A stretch of DNA of 64,000 nucleotides from Gemmatimonadaceae bacterium (GTDB lineage Bacteria; Gemmatimonadota; Gemmatimonadetes; Gemmatimonadales; Gemmatimonadaceae): assembly GCA_020846935.1 (NCBI GenBank), contig JADLCY010000008.1, positions 310,001 through 374,000 on the forward strand, in the 5' to 3' direction. Shown piece after piece: positions 11,583 through 25,450 of the stretch. Numbering within the stretch: position 1 is the first letter of the stretch; every line of letters starts with the position of its first letter. The position numbers and the translations under genes were made by a program. A model generated the notes under the pieces. The model ran no database searches. It was given only the letters and a program-made list of their open reading frames with translations, and was not told where the DNA came from.

Positions 11583-12608
11583 TTGGTCATCACACAGGAA
11601 CTGTTGGCCTGGGTCGGCTTCATCGTTTTCGTCGTCGTGGTGCTGGCGGTGGACCTCGGCGTGCTGAACCGCAAGGCACACGTCGTCACGATTCGCGAGG
11701 CGCTCACGTTCACGGCTGGACTGGCCGTGCTTGCCCTGGCGTTCAACGCGCTCGTGTACGTGATGTACGAACATCACTGGCTCGGGCTGGGCTCCCACGT
11801 CGACAAACTCGACGGCCTGACCAACGATGGCCGACTGGCCGCCGTGAAGTTCTTCACGGGCTACATCATCGAGATCTCGCTCAGTGCGGACAACGTGTTC
11901 GTGATGGCGATGATCTTTCAGTACCTGCGCGTGCCGTCGCAGTACCAGCATCGCGTGTTGTTCTGGGGCATCCTCGGCGCCCTCGTGATGCGCGGCGTCA
12001 TGATCGTGCTTGGGGCGACGCTGATTGCCCGGTACCACTGGATCCTGTACGTCTTCGGCGCGTTTCTGGTGTTCACGGCCGTGCGGATGCTGGTACAGAA
12101 GTCGTCCGACGATGATGTAAGCGACTCCGCGGTGATCCGATGGGTGCGGCGATTCTTCCCGGTGACGCCGACGTACCACGGGCAACGGTTCGCCATCCTG
12201 CAGGACGGGCGACGTGTGCTCACACCGCTGGCTGTGGCGCTGGTACTCGTGGAGACGACGGATCTCGTGTTCGCCGTGGACTCGATCCCGGCCATCTTCG
12301 CGATCACCACCGATCCCTTCATCGTCTTCACGAGCAACGTCTTCGCGATTCTCGGGCTGCGGTCCCTGTACTTTGCCCTGGCGGGAGCGATGGAGAAGTT
12401 CCGCTACCTCAAGGTGTCGCTCGCGGCGATCCTGGCGCTGGTGGGCATCAAGATGCTCGTCGCCGACCTGCTCAAACGCTACATCGGGCCCTCGTTCAAC
12501 TTCTACCTGCTGGGCATGGTGGCCCTGATCCTCCTCATCGGTGTTCTGGCGAGCGTGGTGGCTGCGCGACGCGAGACCGGACAGGACCAGGGCGTGCTGA
12601 CTGACTGA
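11583..12608 (+). CDS. terC: TerC/Alx-family membrane protein (probable manganese exporter)
   Basis: A 341-residue integral membrane protein with seven to nine hydrophobic helices. The two family metal-site motifs are present: SLSADNVFV near residue 100 and TTDLVFAVDSIPAIF near residue 225, with aspartates and asparagine in the membrane core. Characterised TerC/Alx members export Mn(II) and support metalation of exported proteins. The frame opens with TTG at 11583, which has no spaced ribosome-binding site; TTG 11604 is an alternative. A Fur-like box lies upstream and a strong bidirectional terminator follows. Confidence 0.92.
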   Translation: MVITQELLAWVGFIVFVVVVLAVDLGVLNRKAHVVTIREALTFTAGLAVLALAFNALVYVMYEHHWLGLGSHVDKLDGLTNDGRLAAVKFFTGYIIEISLSADNVFVMAMIFQYLRVPSQYQHRVLFWGILGALVMRGVMIVLGATLIARYHWILYVFGAFLVFTAVRMLVQKSSDDDVSDSAVIRWVRRFFPVTPTYHGQRFAILQDGRRVLTPLAVALVLVETTDLVFAVDSIPAIFAITTDPFIVFTSNVFAILGLRSLYFALAGAMEKFRYLKVSLAAILALVGIKMLVADLLKRYIGPSFNFYLLGMVALILLIGVLASVVAARRETGQDQGVLTD

Positions 12609-18044: not shown

Positions 18045-18073
18045 TTGACCGTCGCCACCAGCGCGGATAGGTT
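18045..18073 (+). promoter_or_regulatory. Promoter of the his leader and operon
   Basis: TTGACC (18045-18050) and TAGGTT (18068-18073) are separated by exactly 17 bp. The leader ATG is only 9 bases after the -10 element, so the transcript would start at or within a few bases of the start codon, that is, leaderless or nearly so. Confidence 0.6.
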
Positions 18074-18082
18074 GAGCGCCTC

Positions 18083-18160
18083 ATGCGCCACACACTCCGC
18101 CACCACCATGTCCATCACGTCCACGGCCTCCCGGGCCGCGGCGGTGACGGCACACGGTAG
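18083..18160 (+). CDS. hisL: Histidine-operon leader peptide
   Basis: A 25-codon frame with seven histidines in its first 14 residues (MRHTLRHHHVHHVH, then a Gly/Arg-rich tail), stop at 18158-18160. It lies between a good promoter and an intrinsic terminator that immediately precedes hisG. Such a density of His codons ahead of a complete his operon is the hallmark of ribosome-mediated attenuation: scarce charged His-tRNA stalls the ribosome on the His codons and changes mRNA folding so that transcription goes on. The peptide itself need have no function. The opposite strand and other frames are open but look non-coding. Confidence 0.85.
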   Translation: MRHTLRHHHVHHVHGLPGRGGDGTR

Positions 18161-18196
18161 GACTCGACGCGAGTTCCCTGCGCCACGCACTCCGCT

Positions 18197-18227
18197 ACGG
18201 CCCGTCGACGACGGGCCGTTTTCTTTT
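18197..18227 (+). terminator. Attenuator terminator before hisG
   Basis: A perfect 10-bp stem (18197-18206 with 18210-18219), 3-base loop, then TTTCTTTT. It ends 11 bases before the hisG ATG. Its 5' arm (CGGCCCG, 18198-18204) is also complementary over 7 bases to the leader at 18132-18138. That segment in turn can form an early 5-bp hairpin (18124-18128 with 18134-18138) just after the His codons. These pairings exclude one another, as expected of a terminator/antiterminator switch. Confidence 0.88.
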
Positions 18228-18237
18228 CCACTCCTCC

Positions 18238-19104
18238 ATGCTCCGAATCGCACTACCCAACAAGGGACGACTCGCCGAAGAGACGCGCGATCTCTTTGGG
18301 GACGCTGGGCTCGAAGTCCGGGCGCTCGGGGATCGAGCGCTCACGGCTCGGCTCGGTGAAGACTTCCTCGCGCTGTTCGTGAGGGCGCAGGACATCCCGG
18401 AGTTCGTCGCCGACGGAGCGGCTGACGCCGGCATCACGGGCTGGGATCTCGTCTGCGAGTCGCAGCGCGACCTCGACGTGCTGCTCGACCTCACGTTCGG
18501 TCAGTGTCGCCTGGTCGTGGCGGTCCGCGACGAATCCCGACTGCGGAGCGTGGCCGAGATTGAACCGGGCACGCGCGTGGCCACCGCATTTCCGCGCTCG
18601 ACTCAGGCATACTTCGAGCGTCGAGGTATTGGCGTCGAGGTGGTGCCCGTGAGTGGAGCAACGGAGGTGGCTCCGCACCTCGGCATCGCCGACGTGGTGG
18701 TGGATCTCACCAGCACGGGATCCACGCTCCACGTGAACGGCCTCCGCGAACTGGAGACCGTGCTCGCCTCCTCGGCGCGACTCGTTGTTTCTCCGGCTAC
18801 GATGCAGGCGAATGGCGTGCGCGCCGCCGCGCTCCGCGATCTGACGGCCGCGCTCGAGTCCGTGCTGCGCGCTCGCGGTCAGCGGTACCTGATGGCCAAC
18901 GTTCCGAAGGACGCACTCGACCAGGTCACCGGGGTGCTTCCCGGGCTTCGGGGGCCGACGGTCATCGACATCATCAATGGCGGCGCCCACGCGGCCGTCC
19001 ACGCCGTCGTGCCGGCGCCGGGCGTCTACCGAACCATTGCCGCACTCAAAGCCCTTGGCGCTGAGGGTATCCTCGTGACCCGAATCGAGAGGCTGATGCC
19101 GTGA
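18238..19104 (+). CDS. hisG: ATP phosphoribosyltransferase, long form
   Basis: Catalyses the first step of histidine synthesis, joining ATP and PRPP, and is normally feedback-inhibited by histidine. At 288 residues it is the long homohexameric form with a C-terminal ACT-like regulatory domain, so no HisZ is needed. It starts LRIALPNKGRLAEET and carries the PRPP loop DVVVDLTSTGSTL. No strong ribosome-binding site precedes ATG 18238. It heads the operon behind the attenuator and overlaps hisD by 4 bp. Confidence 0.97.
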   Translation: MLRIALPNKGRLAEETRDLFGDAGLEVRALGDRALTARLGEDFLALFVRAQDIPEFVADGAADAGITGWDLVCESQRDLDVLLDLTFGQCRLVVAVRDESRLRSVAEIEPGTRVATAFPRSTQAYFERRGIGVEVVPVSGATEVAPHLGIADVVVDLTSTGSTLHVNGLRELETVLASSARLVVSPATMQANGVRAAALRDLTAALESVLRARGQRYLMANVPKDALDQVTGVLPGLRGPTVIDIINGGAHAAVHAVVPAPGVYRTIAALKALGAEGILVTRIERLMP

Positions 19105-20408
19105 GTCTGATTACCCTGCGCTACCGCGGTCCCGTCACGGGCCTGCGCGAGGCCGAGCGCGAAGCGCTGTTCGATCGATCCTCACCGGACGACGATCTGG
19201 TGCGTGATACGGTGGGCGCGATCATCGACCTGGTGCGGCGAGAGGGCGATCCCGCGTTGCGGTCCCTGGCGCGCGAATACGACCACGTCAAGCTCGAGTC
19301 CCTCGAAGTGCCCCGCGCGGACTGTACCCGGGCGCTCGAGCGCATGGTGCCGGAGCTCCGGGCCTCGATGGAGCGCGCGGCCCACAACATCACGACGGTG
19401 CATGCGGCGATGCGGCCGACCGCGATGGAGGTGGAGTCGGAACCCGGGATCGTCATCGGTCGCCGACCGGACCCGTTAGGCAGGGTTGGTGTGTACGCGC
19501 CCGGCGGCAAGGCGGCGTACCCGAGTTCCGTGCTGATGGGCGCCATCCCGGCGCGGGTGGCCGGGGTCGGCGAGGTCATCGTCTGCTCTCCGCCGGGCAG
19601 CACCGGCCAACCGCCCACGGCGGTGCTGGCCGCGTGTGCGATCGCCGGTGTCGACCGCGTGTTTGCTGTGGGTGGCGCCGGGGCGGTGGCGGCGATGGCG
19701 TACGGGACGGCGTCAATCCCGCGCGTCGACCGAATCGTCGGGCCCGGCAACGCGTATGTCGCCGCCGCCAAGCTCATGGTGGCGGGAGCGGTGGCGATCG
19801 ACTCCCCAGCGGGGCCATCGGAACTACTCGTGCTGGCGGACGACAGCGCCGACCCCGCGGCGGTCGCGCGCGAGCTCGTTGCGCAGGCCGAGCACGACGA
19901 GCAGGCGTGCGCCGTGGCGCTCGTGCTTGGGGATGCGCTCGCCGATCGCGTCGAGGCATCGGTGTTGGCGCAGGCGGCCGCCACGAAGCGCGGCGACATC
20001 GTCCGCAAGGCGCTCGAAGGCCAGGGCGGCATCCTCGTGGCCACGTCGCGCGAGCAGGCCACCGCGTTCGCCACGCTCTACGCGCCAGAGCATCTGCTCA
20101 TCGCGATGCGGAACCCGTCGGAGATTACGCGCGCGGTGCGCAACGCGGGCACGGTGTTCGAAGGTCCGAGCAGCTCGGCGGCCTTCGGCGACTACATGAC
20201 GGGAGCGAACCACGTGCTGCCGACCGCCGGACTGGCGCGTGCCTATTCAGGGCTCTCCACGCTCGACTTCGTGCGCTGGACCACGTGGCAACGGATCACG
20301 CCCTCGGCGGCGGCTCGTCTGGCGGAGGCGGTCGGGGTGTTCGCGGACGCCGAAGGGCTCGATGGTCACGCCAGGGCGGCACGCGCCTGGCACGGAGCGG
20401 GCCAATGA
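19101..20408 (+). CDS. hisD: Histidinol dehydrogenase
   Basis: A zinc enzyme making the last two oxidations from histidinol to histidine with NAD+. It has 435 residues, the usual length. Signature segments are PGGKAAYPSSVLM, VDRIVGPGNAYVAAAK, IDSPAGPSELLVLAD and a QAEHDEQA motif with zinc and catalytic residues. GTG 19101 overlaps the hisG stop (GTGA); hisC begins 4 bp before its end. Confidence 0.97.
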   Translation: MSLITLRYRGPVTGLREAEREALFDRSSPDDDLVRDTVGAIIDLVRREGDPALRSLAREYDHVKLESLEVPRADCTRALERMVPELRASMERAAHNITTVHAAMRPTAMEVESEPGIVIGRRPDPLGRVGVYAPGGKAAYPSSVLMGAIPARVAGVGEVIVCSPPGSTGQPPTAVLAACAIAGVDRVFAVGGAGAVAAMAYGTASIPRVDRIVGPGNAYVAAAKLMVAGAVAIDSPAGPSELLVLADDSADPAAVARELVAQAEHDEQACAVALVLGDALADRVEASVLAQAAATKRGDIVRKALEGQGGILVATSREQATAFATLYAPEHLLIAMRNPSEITRAVRNAGTVFEGPSSSAAFGDYMTGANHVLPTAGLARAYSGLSTLDFVRWTTWQRITPSAAARLAEAVGVFADAEGLDGHARAARAWHGAGQ

Positions 20409-21460
20409 GCGCACCTCGGTATGCGCCGCGGGCGGCCTACGCGTCCCTGCGCGCGTACGATGCTCAGCCGGTGACCTGCGACATTCAGCTGGCGGACAAC
20501 ACGTCGTCCTTCGGACCTCCGCCTTCCGCGCTACGCGTGCTGCGGGCAGCCGATGCAAACAGTCTGGCGCAGTACCCCACGACGTACTCGCGACCGTTAC
20601 GCGACGCCCTCGCGCGGTACATCGGCGTGGCGCCCGACGAGATCATGGTCGGCGCCGGGTCCGACGACGTGATGAGCTGTGCGTTCCGCGCGCTGGCCGA
20701 CCCCGGTGCGCGACTGGCCTACATGCATCCCACCTTTGTCATGACCCGCGTGTTCGCCGAGTCGAACTCGCTGGTGACGATGCCGATCGGGCTGACCGCC
20801 GACTTTGACGCCGATGCGGAGGCGTTGCTCGCCGAGCGCGCCGAGATCACGTACGTGTGCTCGCCGAACAATCCCACGGGCACGCCGGTGCATCCGGCGA
20901 CGCTCTCCCGCATCGTGACGGGGGCGCGCGGTGTCGTCATGATCGATGAAGCGTACGCCGAGTACGCCGGAACCAGCCTCGCGGCGTCTGCGCCGAGTGA
21001 AGACGGCGTCCTGGTGCTCCGCACGTTTTCCAAGGCGTTCGGACTCGCGGGTCTGCGCGTCGGCTACGCGGTGGGCGCGCGACGTCTGATTGCCGAGTTG
21101 GAGAAGGCACGCGGGCCGTTCATGGTGACGTCGGTCAGCGAGCAGGCGGCGTTGGCGACTCTCACGCACGATGTGCCGTGGGTGATGGAGCGCGTCGGGG
21201 AGATCCGTGATGCGCGCGACTGGTTCGTCGGGGAGGTCGAGCGCGCAGGCTACGCGCCGCTGCGGTCGAGTGCGAACTTCGTGCTGCTTCGCGTGCATGG
21301 CGCCCGGGCGGCGCACCAGGCCCTGCGAGACCGCGGGGTTCTGGTGCGGCCGTTCGAGCAGCTCCCCGGCATCGGCGACGCCCTGCGGATCTCCGTCGCG
21401 GGGTTGCCCGTCATGCACCGCGTGCTCGATACCCTGCGAGAGGTGGTTCCATGCGCGTGA
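20405..21460 (+). CDS. hisC: Histidinol-phosphate aminotransferase
   Basis: A PLP class-II-fold aminotransferase converting imidazole-acetol phosphate to histidinol phosphate with glutamate. It has 351 residues from ATG 20405. Visible motifs are SPNNPTGTP, VMIDEAYAEY and the PLP-lysine segment TFSKAFGLAGLRVGY. The open frame extends far upstream inside hisD, but that part is antisense-like shadow. It overlaps hisD by 4 bp and hisH by 10 bp. Confidence 0.96.
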   Translation: MSAPRYAPRAAYASLRAYDAQPVTCDIQLADNTSSFGPPPSALRVLRAADANSLAQYPTTYSRPLRDALARYIGVAPDEIMVGAGSDDVMSCAFRALADPGARLAYMHPTFVMTRVFAESNSLVTMPIGLTADFDADAEALLAERAEITYVCSPNNPTGTPVHPATLSRIVTGARGVVMIDEAYAEYAGTSLAASAPSEDGVLVLRTFSKAFGLAGLRVGYAVGARRLIAELEKARGPFMVTSVSEQAALATLTHDVPWVMERVGEIRDARDWFVGEVERAGYAPLRSSANFVLLRVHGARAAHQALRDRGVLVRPFEQLPGIGDALRISVAGLPVMHRVLDTLREVVPCA

Positions 21461-22047
21461 GCATCCTGGACTACGGTGTGGGCAACGTGCATTCGCTCGC
21501 CAAGGCCATCACGGCCGCGGGCGGTGAGCCACGCGTGGAGCGCGACGTACGCGTGGCGATGAAAGCGGACGCGCTGGTGCTCCCCGGGGTCGGCGCGTTC
21601 TCCCCGGCGGCCGAGTGCCTGGCACCCGCACGATCGGTCCTTCGCGACACGATCCTCGGAGGGTTCCCGACGCTGGGCATCTGCCTCGGTATGCAACTCC
21701 TCTTTGACGCGAGCGATGAAGGGCCGGGAGCGGGCCTTGGCGTGTTCGAGGGAAGGGTCACGCGGCTCCGGGCGCGCGCGGTGCCGCAGATCGGATGGAA
21801 CGCCGTCGATGGAACGGAGGATCCCTTCATCCGTGGCAGCGCACTGCGTGAGGCCTACTATGCCAACTCCTATGCCTGCCGGCCGCACGACGCGTCCGTC
21901 GTGTGGGCGTGGACCGACCACGACGGCGACCGCTTTCCCGCGGTTGTCCGTCGCGGCCGCACGCTCGGCGTGCAGTTTCATCCGGAGAAGTCGTCACGGC
22001 CAGGCGTGGCGTTCATCCGGGCCTTTCTGTCGGAGGTAGCCGCATGA
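21451..22047 (+). CDS. hisH: Imidazole glycerol phosphate synthase, glutaminase subunit
   Basis: A class I glutamine amidotransferase that feeds ammonia to HisF. In 198 residues it has the oxyanion and nucleophile motifs LPGVGAF and GICLGMQLLF (catalytic Cys), and the His-Glu pair in QFHPEKSS near the C-terminus. It lies between hisC and hisA with overlaps on both sides, while its partner hisF is three genes on. Confidence 0.96.
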   Translation: MRVSILDYGVGNVHSLAKAITAAGGEPRVERDVRVAMKADALVLPGVGAFSPAAECLAPARSVLRDTILGGFPTLGICLGMQLLFDASDEGPGAGLGVFEGRVTRLRARAVPQIGWNAVDGTEDPFIRGSALREAYYANSYACRPHDASVVWAWTDHDGDRFPAVVRRGRTLGVQFHPEKSSRPGVAFIRAFLSEVAA

Positions 22048-22757
22048 TCGCCATTCCGGCCATCGACCTTCGTGGCGGGGCGTGCGTGCAGTTGGTCGGC
22101 GGGTCGTATGCGGCCGAACGCATCCGCCTCGACGACCCTCGCGCCGTCGCTCGCGAGTGGCAACACGCAGGGTTCACGCGACTGCACGTGATCGACCTCG
22201 ACGCGGCCACGGGCCGGGGATCGAACGCGCGCGTGGTGCGCGCCGTGCTCGACGAACGGACGGCGGACGTGCAGGTGGGAGGCGGGTTGCGAGCCACGGG
22301 CCAGGTCGACGACGTGCTCTCGGAGGGCGCGTCCCGCGCGATCGTTGGCACGCGCGCGCTGGAGGATCTCGACTGGCTCGCCGAGCTGGCCGATGATCAC
22401 CCGGGCGAAATCATCCTCGCCGCCGACGTGCGTGAGCGGCGCCTCGTGACGCAGGGATGGCAGCGCACCTTGCCGCGCACGATTCTCGACGTGACGGAGG
22501 AGGTGGCGTCGCTGCCGCTCGCCGGGCTGCTGGTGACGGCGGTGCACAAGGAAGGCCAGATGCTTGGCGTTGACCTGCCGCTGATGGAGGATGTCGTGGA
22601 AGCAGCGGCGTTTCCCGTCCTGGCCGCGGGCGGCGTCGGCGCGATGGCTGACCTGTACGCGCTTCAGGATCGGGGCATCGCTGGCGCAGTGCTGGGCATG
22701 GCGCTCTACACTGGTGCGCTCGATCCCCGCCGTGTGGCCGAGGAGTTCTCTCAATGA
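22044..22757 (+). CDS. hisA: ProFAR isomerase
   Basis: 1-(5-phosphoribosyl)-5-[(5-phosphoribosylamino)methylideneamino]imidazole-4-carboxamide isomerase, a (beta/alpha)8 barrel of 237 residues from ATG 22044. The catalytic aspartate is in IPAIDLRGGACVQL, with phosphate-binding glycines in QVGGGLRA and the second acid in ILAADVRER. It is related by sequence and fold to the neighbouring hisF. ATG overlaps the hisH stop, and hisB starts 4 bp before its end. Confidence 0.96.
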   Translation: MIAIPAIDLRGGACVQLVGGSYAAERIRLDDPRAVAREWQHAGFTRLHVIDLDAATGRGSNARVVRAVLDERTADVQVGGGLRATGQVDDVLSEGASRAIVGTRALEDLDWLAELADDHPGEIILAADVRERRLVTQGWQRTLPRTILDVTEEVASLPLAGLLVTAVHKEGQMLGVDLPLMEDVVEAAAFPVLAAGGVGAMADLYALQDRGIAGAVLGMALYTGALDPRRVAEEFSQ

Positions 22758-23296
22758 TGCTCGAACGCGAGACACGCGAAACCAGCGTGAAGGTGGCCTT
22801 GTCGACCACGGATCCAACGATCGCCGTCGACACGACCGAGCCATTCCTCACGCACATGATGGAAACACTCGCCCGGTACAGCGGTCTCGGGCTTCGCCTG
22901 GAGGCCCGCGGCGACCTTCGGCATCACCTCATCGAGGATGTAGCCATCACGCTCGGCACCGCGCTGCTGGACCTGGTGCCTGCTCACGCGGTGCGCTACG
23001 GACATCGGGTGCTTCCCATGGATGACGCGCTGGTGGCGGTGGCGCTCGACGTAGGCGGCCGACCCTTCTATCGCGGTCCGCTGCCCAGTCGCCTCTGGGA
23101 TCACTGGATGCGGTCATTCGCCGACCACGCCCGGTGCACGTTGCACGTCGTCGTCGAGCGCGGGACCGATCGGCATCACGTGGTGGAAGCAGCATTCAAG
23201 GGTTTGGGACTGGCCCTTCGCGATGCGCTGGCTGACGGCGGCGTCGTGTTCTCCACCAAGGGAGGCGTGGCGTGGCGTCGCCACGGGTCCGCGTGA
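22754..23296 (+). CDS. hisB: Imidazoleglycerol-phosphate dehydratase, divergent
   Basis: Dehydrates IGP to imidazole-acetol phosphate using two Mn ions. The protein is short (180 residues) and lacks a fused phosphatase. Two HHxxE metal motifs are present (RHHLIED and RHHVVEA), with LPMDDALVAVALDVGGRPF between them. The N-terminal segment LTHMMETLARYSGL keeps the first His, but the conserved ARH(G/S)G-type second His is replaced by Tyr, and the normal DDHH is RHH. It may have altered metal binding but is probably the working enzyme, since no other hisB is in the operon. Confidence 0.9.
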   Translation: MMLERETRETSVKVALSTTDPTIAVDTTEPFLTHMMETLARYSGLGLRLEARGDLRHHLIEDVAITLGTALLDLVPAHAVRYGHRVLPMDDALVAVALDVGGRPFYRGPLPSRLWDHWMRSFADHARCTLHVVVERGTDRHHVVEAAFKGLGLALRDALADGGVVFSTKGGVAWRRHGSA

Positions 23297-24057
23297 CGCT
23301 GCGCAAGCGCGTCGTGGTGTGCCTCGACGTTCGCGAGGGGCGCGTGGTCAAAGGCACGAACTTCGTCGACCTGCGTGACGTCGGGGATCCGGCAGACCTT
23401 GCGGTGCACTACGAGCGTGAGGGCGCCGATGAACTCGTGTTTCTCGACATCGCGGCGAGCGCCGACGCGCGCGGTACGCTGTTCGACCTCGCTCGCCGGA
23501 CCGCCGAACGGCTGTTCATCCCGCTCACGGTCGGTGGCGGCATTCGCAGCGTGGACGACGTGGGCACCGCGCTGCGCGCCGGCGCCGACAAGGTGGGACT
23601 CAACTCCGCCGCCGTGCAGCGACCCGAGGTGCTGGCCGAATGCGCCGCGCGCTATGGCGCGCAGTGCATCGTGGCGAGCATCGATGCCCGGCGTGCCGGG
23701 GACGGTTGGGAGGTGGTGGCAAAGGGCGGGCGCGAACCCACCGGGCGTGACGCGATCGCCTGGGCACGCGAGTGCGAAGCGCGAGGCGCCGGCGAGATCC
23801 TGCTCACGAGCATCGACCGCGACGGCGCGCGAACCGGCTACGACCTCGACCTCACGGCCGCCGTGACTGCCGCGGTACGCATCCCCGTGGTGGCCTCGGG
23901 CGGTGCAGGAACGGCCGCTCACGTCTGCGACGTGCTCACGGCAGGTCAGGCCGACGCCGCGCTCGTTGCGGGAATCCTGCACGCGCGCCTGACGAGCGTG
24001 CGCGTGATCAAGCAGGCCATGGCACATGCGGGGATTCCCGTGCGGATGGTCGCATGA
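23293..24057 (+). CDS. hisF: Imidazole glycerol phosphate synthase, cyclase subunit
   Basis: The (beta/alpha)8 cyclase that forms IGP and AICAR with ammonia from HisH. It has the motifs [27 protein letters not shown] and [15 protein letters not shown] 23293 overlaps the hisB stop (GTGA) and gives the usual short N-terminus; an earlier GTG at 23272 would add seven residues. The length is about 254 residues. Confidence 0.95.
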
Positions 24058-24839
24058 GGCTTCCCGCGCGTGTGCTCCTCGACGCGGTCGCTGAGGCAGC
24101 CCGTCTCGCCGGCGAGCTGGCGCTCGACCACTACCGGCGTGGCGTCGGCGTCGAACTCAAGGGCGACGGGAGTCCGGTCACCGCTGCCGATCGCGAAGCC
24201 GAACAGGCGGTACGTGACTGGATCTCGGTGCGCTTTCCGGGGGACGAGGTGCTGGGCGAAGAGTTCGGCTACACACCGGGAACAGGCCGACGCTGGTTCA
24301 TCGATCCGATCGATGGCACGAAGTCCTTCGTGCGGCACGTACCCCTGTGGGGTTCGATGATCGGTGTGGCCGAAGGCGAAACGGTGGTCGCCGGTGCCGT
24401 GTATTGTCCGGCGGTGGGCGAAATGGTGGCTGCGGCGCTGGGTGAGGGCGCCTGGTTCAACGGTGTGCGCTGCCACGTGTCGGACGTGAGTGACATTGCC
24501 CGTGCGACCATCCTCCACACCGACGATCGATTTGCGTGGAACCCGGAGCGTGGGGTTGCCTGGGGCGCGTTGGGTGCGCGTGTCGCGGTCGCCCGAACGT
24601 GGGGCGACTGCTACGGCTACCTGCAGGTGGCCACGGGGCGCGCCGAGCTGATGGTCGATGATCGACTGAGTCCCTGGGACGCCGCCGCGCTGATCCCGAT
24701 CGTGCAGGAAGCGGGTGGTGTGTATTCGGACTGGAAGGGAGGCACCAGGGTCGATGGTGGCGACGGCTTTGCGAGCAACGCGGCCCTGGCGCCGACGTTC
24801 CGTGCGGCGCTCGGCATTCCCGAGCCCTCGGCGTCATGA
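24054..24839 (+). CDS. hisN: Histidinol-phosphatase, inositol-monophosphatase family
   Basis: A Mg-dependent phosphatase of 261 residues from ATG 24054. It has the family metal motifs GEEFG (Glu), IDPIDGTKSFVRH (Asp-Pro-Ile-Asp-Gly-Thr) and SPWDAAALIPIVQEAGG. Position inside the his operon, with 4-bp overlaps on both sides, identifies it as the HisN-type histidinol-phosphate phosphatase rather than an inositol or CysQ enzyme. This supplies the step not covered by the monofunctional hisB. Confidence 0.92.
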   Translation: MRLPARVLLDAVAEAARLAGELALDHYRRGVGVELKGDGSPVTAADREAEQAVRDWISVRFPGDEVLGEEFGYTPGTGRRWFIDPIDGTKSFVRHVPLWGSMIGVAEGETVVAGAVYCPAVGEMVAAALGEGAWFNGVRCHVSDVSDIARATILHTDDRFAWNPERGVAWGALGARVAVARTWGDCYGYLQVATGRAELMVDDRLSPWDAAALIPIVQEAGGVYSDWKGGTRVDGGDGFASNAALAPTFRAALGIPEPSAS

Positions 24840-25450
24840 TCGATCCGGATCAGCTCGACTTCGCCAAGGGCGGCGGGTTCGTCACGGTGGTGTGCCAGGA
24901 CCAGCGCACCGGCGGCGTACTGATGGTGGCGCGCGCGGATCGCGCGGCCATCGAGCGCACCGTCACTACCGGCGAGATGCACTACCACTCCCGTACTCGC
25001 GGGCTGTGGCACAAGGGCGCCACGAGCGGCAACGTGCAGCGCGTGGTGAGTCTCACCGCCGACTGTGACGGCGACACCGTGCTCGCACGAGTGATCCCCA
25101 TGGGGCCGGCGTGTCACGCAGGCTCGATGTCGTGTTTTGATACGCCGGGCGCTGCCGGTGATGCGCTTGGGGAGTTGCAGCAGATCATCGGCCAGCGGCA
25201 GGCCGCGGCAAGCGTCGGGAGCTACACCCAACGACTGCTCAACAACCGCAACCTGCGCCTCAAGAAACTCGGTGAAGAAGCCGCTGAGCTCGCGGTAGCC
25301 TGCGCCGACGGCGACGCCGCACGCGCTACGGAAGAAGCGGCGGACCTGGTGTATCACGCGATGGTCGCGCTCACGGGGCTCGGCGTCCCGTGGCTCGAGG
25401 TGCAGCGCGTCCTGGCACAACGCCAGCGCCGCTCGAGCGACGGCGCGTAG
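24836..25450 (+). CDS. hisIE: Bifunctional phosphoribosyl-AMP cyclohydrolase / phosphoribosyl-ATP pyrophosphatase
   Basis: Performs steps 2 and 3 of histidine synthesis. The N-terminal HisI domain (residues about 1-100) has the zinc and substrate motifs MHYHSRTRGLWHKG and DCDGDTVL plus Cys in PACHAGSMSCF. The C-terminal HisE domain (about 115-200) is a MazG-like four-helix fold with KLGEEAAELAVA and EEAADLVYH, which hold the Mg-binding acids. It is the last operon gene and ends 11 bp from the convergent peptidase gene; no terminator hairpin is visible there. Confidence 0.96.
   Translation: MIDPDQLDFAKGGGFVTVVCQDQRTGGVLMVARADRAAIERTVTTGEMHYHSRTRGLWHKGATSGNVQRVVSLTADCDGDTVLARVIPMGPACHAGSMSCFDTPGAAGDALGELQQIIGQRQAAASVGSYTQRLLNNRNLRLKKLGEEAAELAVACADGDAARATEEAADLVYHAMVALTGLGVPWLEVQRVLAQRQRRSSDGA

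Follow-up and report, generated by a model that had tools for sequence, protein, structure and literature searches.

Most described cases of ribosome-mediated attenuation are from Proteobacteria and some Actinobacteria and Firmicutes. For histidine, the obvious point of comparison is the enterobacterial his attenuator (hisL; Rfam RF00514), in which a run of His codons is combined with a mutually exclusive antiterminator and terminator, immediately upstream of the first his gene. His attenuators have also been predicted from sequence in the Bacillus cereus group, Peptostreptococcaceae and Erysipelotrichales (PMC9413887), again with a His-rich leader, an antiterminator and a terminator before his genes, and with three to five consecutive His codons. 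Attenuation by a leader ORF without a 5′ UTR has precedents too: in Sinorhizobium meliloti the trpL RNA (peTrpL) begins with the leader ORF ATG, which establishes a leaderless attenuator in another phylum (PMC7298713), and in mycobacteria leaderless polycysteine short ORFs act as attenuators, according to the account of Canestrari (2020) in PMC9031893.

The window, that is, the whole 64,000-nt stretch of DNA that was analysed, contains at positions 18045–18237 what we read, with a probability of about 0.93, as a ribosome-mediated transcription attenuator of the his operon, judging from the sequence and its relatives. The locus has a His-rich leader ORF, an intrinsic terminator before the first gene and an antiterminator that shares the terminator 5′ arm; selection of the antiterminator by the position of the ribosome is seen in simulated folds only. 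A first-pass annotation had proposed this layout, which conservation, terminator covariation, cognate matching and simulated folds all support, and most of its anatomy holds when read base by base (Table 1): a 25-codon frame with seven His among its first 14 codons (codons 3, 7, 8, 9, 11, 12 and 14), a promoter with 17-bp spacing (TTGACC-N17-TAGGTT), and a 10-bp terminator with a T-run, the end of which lies ten bases from the hisG ATG and not 11 as annotated. The two partners proposed for 18132–18138 are likewise there, 18198–18204 (CGGCCCG) pairing perfectly with the whole segment (CGGGCCG) and 18124–18128 with its last five bases, 18134–18138. Directly 3′ of the terminator hairpin stands UUUCUUUU, and the fold of the 163-nt leader has z = −3.0 against shuffles. 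In the operon, hisG, hisD, hisH, hisA, hisB, hisF and hisIE have the support of family models, and the hisC-like and phosphatase-like ORFs were named by sequence and position. The closest named genomes place the source genome in Gemmatimonadaceae (Gemmatimonadota).

Table 1. Features of the his leader and operon in window coordinates, and the two further attenuators of the same genome in contig coordinates.
Feature	Position	Strand	Basis and remarks
-35 box TTGACC	18045–18050	+	Sequence; relatives have TTGAC[GCAT]-N16-18-TAnnnT at the same place with respect to the leader start
-10 box TAGGTT	18068–18073	+	Sequence; 17-nt spacer
Expected transcription start	about 18079–18082	+	Predicted from the -10 box
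Leader peptide ORF, MRHTLRHHHVHHVHGLPGRGGDGTR and stop	18083–18160	+	25 codons, 7 His; predicted to be (nearly) leaderless, without Shine-Dalgarno
Region 1, CGGCC	18124–18128	+	Pairs with 18134–18138; its first base is the third position of the final His codon
Region 2, CGGGCCG	18132–18138	+	Copy of the terminator 3′ arm; partner is region 1 or the terminator 5′ arm
Possible antiterminator extension	18140–18144 (GGCGG) with 18192–18196 (CCGCU)	+	Simulated fold with the ribosome on His 7–12
Small hairpin GACUCG-ACG-CGAGUUC	18161–18176	+	Inside the antiterminator; similar hairpin in a same-genus relative (L003), the comparison being confined to the genus
Intrinsic terminator hairpin, ACGGCCCGUC-GAC-GACGGGCCGU	18197–18219	+	10 bp, 3-nt loop; arms 18197–18206 and 18210–18219
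Terminator U tract, UUUUCUUUU	18219–18227	+	Sequence; ends ten bases before the hisG ATG
hisG (ATP phosphoribosyltransferase), first gene of the regulated operon	18238–19104	+	TIGR00070, TIGR03455
hisD, aminotransferase-like ORF (hisC position), hisH, hisA, hisB, hisF, inositol-monophosphatase-like ORF, hisIE	19101–25450	+	
Second attenuator (L203)	contig C1, about 752832	-	TTGACG-N18-TACACT, 10 nt, MRLSAATAQNFYFAGAYWYTSGRWTRTS and stop, terminator CGGCCCCCGAGAUGAUCGGGGGCCG-UUUUC; DAHP-synthase homologue downstream
Third attenuator (L204)	contig C4, about 95668	+	TTGACG-N18-TAGGTT, 7 nt, MNAAARRAFFFSFSLPHPGENGGA and stop, terminator CCUCCCC-GAGC-GGGGAGG-UUUUUUU

In comparison with hisL, the Gemmatimonadota leader has essentially three pairings (1:2, 2:3 and 3:4), its region 2 lies inside the ORF, where it copies the terminator 3′ arm, and its ORF is predicted to have neither 5′ UTR nor Shine-Dalgarno. 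The window stays below the gathering threshold of RF00514 and gives no match to that family at E up to 10. The His attenuators of PMC9413887 differ in belonging to Firmicutes, a separate lineage found independently, and in their consecutive His codons. What the leader would share with peTrpL is a start at the leader ATG, while amino acid (tryptophan), lineage (Alphaproteobacteria) and sequence differ; with the polycysteine ORFs, as PMC9031893 presents them, it would share a leaderless, amino-acid-rich short ORF, and there the amino acid is cysteine and the hosts are mycobacteria. The type of mechanism is already known. New, to the extent that open-access text shows, are the lineage, the sequence family, the breadth of its conservation and the probably leaderless start. 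In agreement with the first-pass annotation, searches of the open-access literature turned up no described case in Gemmatimonadota; a subscription survey (Lopatovskaya and colleagues, 2010) may already list Myxococcus.

Conservation of the His-rich frame and the terminator upstream of hisG, which had been put forward as a check on this reading, is found in nearly every relative of this hisG. Within the same genus, family and order, all but one of the close hisG homologues (the exception being L022; the upstream region of another, L008, contains Ns) are preceded, once read in the correct orientation, by a His-rich ORF and a terminator, and the same pair recurs in 80 further named loci wherever there is sufficient upstream DNA, about 20 of them in Myxococcaceae/Archangiaceae and several in ‘Ca. 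Eisenbacteria’. Over 94 leaders, the number of His codons per 11-codon stretch is 4–8. A covariance model built from 48 leaders matches in 137 of 298 Gemmatimonadota genomes, in 57 of the 146 genomes of a Myxococcota sample (51 at E < 1e-8) and in 10 of 47 genomes from the phylum to which an Eisenbacteria locus belongs (7 of them strong matches); in the source genome it matches at the his leader only. About ten weak matches fell inside genes and were excluded. The occurrence in Myxococcaceae and ‘Ca. Eisenbacteria’ goes beyond what had been annotated, as do the probable leaderless ORF and the two additional attenuators in the genome. As the device is conserved across a little-studied phylum, nature supplies about two hundred versions of a small switch on which the choice of RNA structure by ribosome position can be put to the test, and as Myxococcus xanthus carries the same His leader device and is genetically tractable, the idea is testable now.

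The HisG tree lacks an outside root and does not give the direction of a possible transfer of the leader involving Myxococcaceae. In the same tree, a contig labelled ‘Comamonas’ (L064) falls inside Myxococcus and one from a ‘Ca. Kuenenia’ MAG (L087) inside Gemmatimonadaceae; these records are probably mislabelled or contaminated. One further locus (L145) has two near-identical His leaders about 9.5 kb apart, the first before hisG and the second before a HisC-like ORF (MTPFPRDLYAPLVPYAPDRRPVEVDLSDNTNRWGTH), which may mean that the his operon was split and its attenuator copied.

Could such an arrangement come about by chance, or by faulty assembly? Self-complementary structures are frequent, and the DNA here is rich in GC. 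We scanned 2.18 of the 4.52 Mb of the genome for a promoter followed at 4–12 nt by a short ORF and then a terminator, and found exactly three such units in 2.18 Mb, whereas five Markov shuffles contained none. Short ORFs with six or more His in 10 codons number two in the same 2.18 Mb on both strands, namely the his leader and one without a promoter match. This rarity, together with the empty shuffles, argues that the his attenuator is not a chance product. Since the device is, moreover, kept in tens of independent genomes, both chance and an assembly artefact are refuted by conservation, and we regard their probability as negligible.

The helices themselves carry the next line of evidence. 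In the terminator, both sides have changed in 5 of the 10 pairs (36 cells), and none of 500 shuffles has as many such cells. The antiterminator (2:3) helix is paired in 84.9% of cells, compared with 30–49% when slid, and the 1:2 helix in 91.1%, compared with 20–61%, but in the main alignment covariation of these two helices does not exceed that of shuffles, as expected where a single segment has two partners to fit. In most Gemmatimonadota leaders, the last His codon is followed by GGCCC-GACGGGYCGGGGC, the first part being region 1 and the second region 2. Sharing the sequence of the terminator 3′ arm (GACGGGCC), region 2 is able to capture the 5′ arm GGCCCGUC.

The matching is much closer within a leader than between leaders. 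Among 31 divergent leaders, which include Tyr and Phe leaders and His leaders before a different type of HisG, the cognate duplex of region 2 and terminator has a mean energy of −18.6 kcal/mol, while permuted partners reach −16.2 (sd 0.47), and none of 20,000 permutations is as good. Synonymous recoding with the codon usage of the operon weakens the duplex on average from −21.5 to −18.4; for the window's own leader taken alone, this control is not significant (rank 0.43). In five loci from another family of the order, the HisG behind the His leader is of another build (LPKGRM type), and the terminator is wholly different in sequence. The Phe leader of the source genome, again entirely different in sequence, nevertheless repeats the plan with CUCCC, GGGGAG and the terminator CCUCCCC...GGGGAGG. 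At one locus (L021, minus strand), three tandem copies of the terminator 3′ arm with its U tract (GACGGGCTTTTTCGTTTTAGA) lie about 110 nt before hisG.

Many of the leaders encode a peptide of the form HHxHHHGPxGRG, and one might take the peptide as the conserved element, either as a His-rich small protein (e.g., metal-binding) or as an arrest peptide, the terminator being incidental. Counted from the His codons, the core of region 2, CGGGNC, falls in each of the three frames (53, 6 and 19 leaders), so what is conserved is the RNA and not the peptide. GP-x-GRG is then the peptide shadow of an RNA motif, which in the other frames is read as G-S-R-A-G-A or G-P-D-G-T, and peptide-level conservation is rejected on this ground. 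Leaders of the same plan rich in Tyr, Phe or Leu, moreover, are each followed by a gene of the pathway that fits their codons. We consider a peptide-based function very unlikely.

How an attenuator of this kind would switch was followed in simulations in which the RNA downstream of the ribosome was folded until the terminator 5′ arm was complete, the ribosome edge being assumed to lie 15 nt beyond the first base of the A site. In the folds of the window leader, the antiterminator forms with the ribosome on His 7 to His 12, extended by the additional pairing in Table 1, and does not form if the ribosome is at His 3, has reached or passed His 14, stands at the stop codon, or is absent. Over 93 leaders, simulated folds have the antiterminator in 97–100% with the ribosome on any His codon except the last and in 54% on the last; past it the proportion falls to 24% at +1 codon, 12% at +3 and 0% at +5 and at the stop codon, and it is 42% with no ribosome at all. 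Shuffling region 2 leaves some antiterminator in 74% of the stall simulations, compared with 99% for the real sequence, a contrast that is weak by itself, since shuffled segments often pair in such GC-rich DNA. In folds of the window leader the terminator is always the stabler structure once its 3′ arm has been made; read-through would thus require kinetic trapping, and the choice must be made during transcription, as in other attenuators.

On this basis, we propose that transcription would start at the leader ATG or a few bases 5′ of it and that a ribosome would initiate on the RNA 5′ end. Scarce His-tRNA would stall it on the His codons and, at most of these, region 1 would be barred from competing and region 2 left free to pair with the terminator 5′ arm once this is synthesised, allowing the polymerase to read through into hisG. 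With plentiful His-tRNA, the ribosome would pass region 2 and reach the stop codon, where it would mask region 2, or region 2 would re-pair with region 1 after release, and in either case the terminator would form.

The his genes of Firmicutes and Actinobacteria can also be regulated by T-boxes (PMC9413887), and a histidine T-box, or another leader binding uncharged tRNA or protein, could in principle govern the terminator, leaving the His-rich ORF as a by-product. The RNA from a start near 18080 to the terminator is only about 115 nt long and mostly coding, and a T-box or other catalogued RNA was rejected because no Rfam family matches the window at its gathering score, and those appearing at E up to 10 are meaningless; the idea strikes us as exceedingly improbable. 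The window also encodes a TerC/Alx family membrane protein at 11583–12608 (TIGR03718, ‘R_switched’ group), without a riboswitch match in Rfam.

Attenuation could, alternatively, operate on translation, with the hairpin covering the hisG ribosome-binding site and transcription not being ended, and the hairpin indeed ends close to hisG, 18 nt from the ATG. It is followed, however, by a clear U tract that is kept in relatives, and hisG offers no Shine-Dalgarno that could be hidden: CCACUCCUCC stands upstream of the ATG, and 18228–18237 reads CCACTCCTCC. An SD-like core precedes hisG in only 21 of 94 relatives, and hisD, hisH, hisA, hisB and hisF, unlike hisG, are preceded by purine-rich sites. 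Control at translation is accordingly a most unlikely reading, and we retain that of transcription attenuation.

The distance between promoter and leader start is the feature that points to initiation on the RNA 5′ end. In 89 of 94 leaders, the -10 element of the best promoter match ends 5–11 nt from an in-frame ATG or GTG, which shuffled upstream DNA achieves in 8.3%. The usual distance from -10 element to transcription start is 6–8 nt, which would give a leader 5′ UTR of zero to about five bases, with no room for a Shine-Dalgarno. The His leader ORF is thus probably leaderless, or nearly so, as far as promoter spacing tells, and the combination of attenuation with leaderless initiation suggests itself as a recurring arrangement and not the curiosity of a single operon.

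We think it probable, with a good measure of reserve, that in Gemmatimonadota the pathways for His and Tyr/Phe and, judging by single examples, those for Leu and Met/Cys are all under one standardised leaderless attenuator, in which the Shine-Dalgarno step is replaced by 5′-end initiation on nascent RNA, the his version being common to Myxococcaceae and some ‘Ca. Eisenbacteria’. Its plan would be TTGAC-N17-TAnnnT, 5–11 nt, AUG, the regulatory codons, a copy of the terminator 3′ arm within the ORF, and the terminator. The three units found in the source genome are His, Phe and aromatic leaders, and the latter two precede aromatic-pathway genes; the ORF downstream of the third attenuator has a DAHP-synthase match inside it and an N-terminus resembling chorismate mutase. 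In other Gemmatimonadota, leaders rich in Tyr/Phe stand before phenylalanine 4-monooxygenase and DAHP synthase. Those of this plan that are Tyr-rich occur twice before the monooxygenase (L142 and L144) and at six loci before DAHP synthase (L143, L150, L152, L153, L158 and L160). To our knowledge, attenuators with Tyr codons are uncommon. A Leu-rich leader lies upstream of leuA (L155, a single example), and Met/Cys-rich leaders, also single examples, precede an ATP-grasp gene (L146) and an O-acetylhomoserine sulfhydrylase-like gene (L196).
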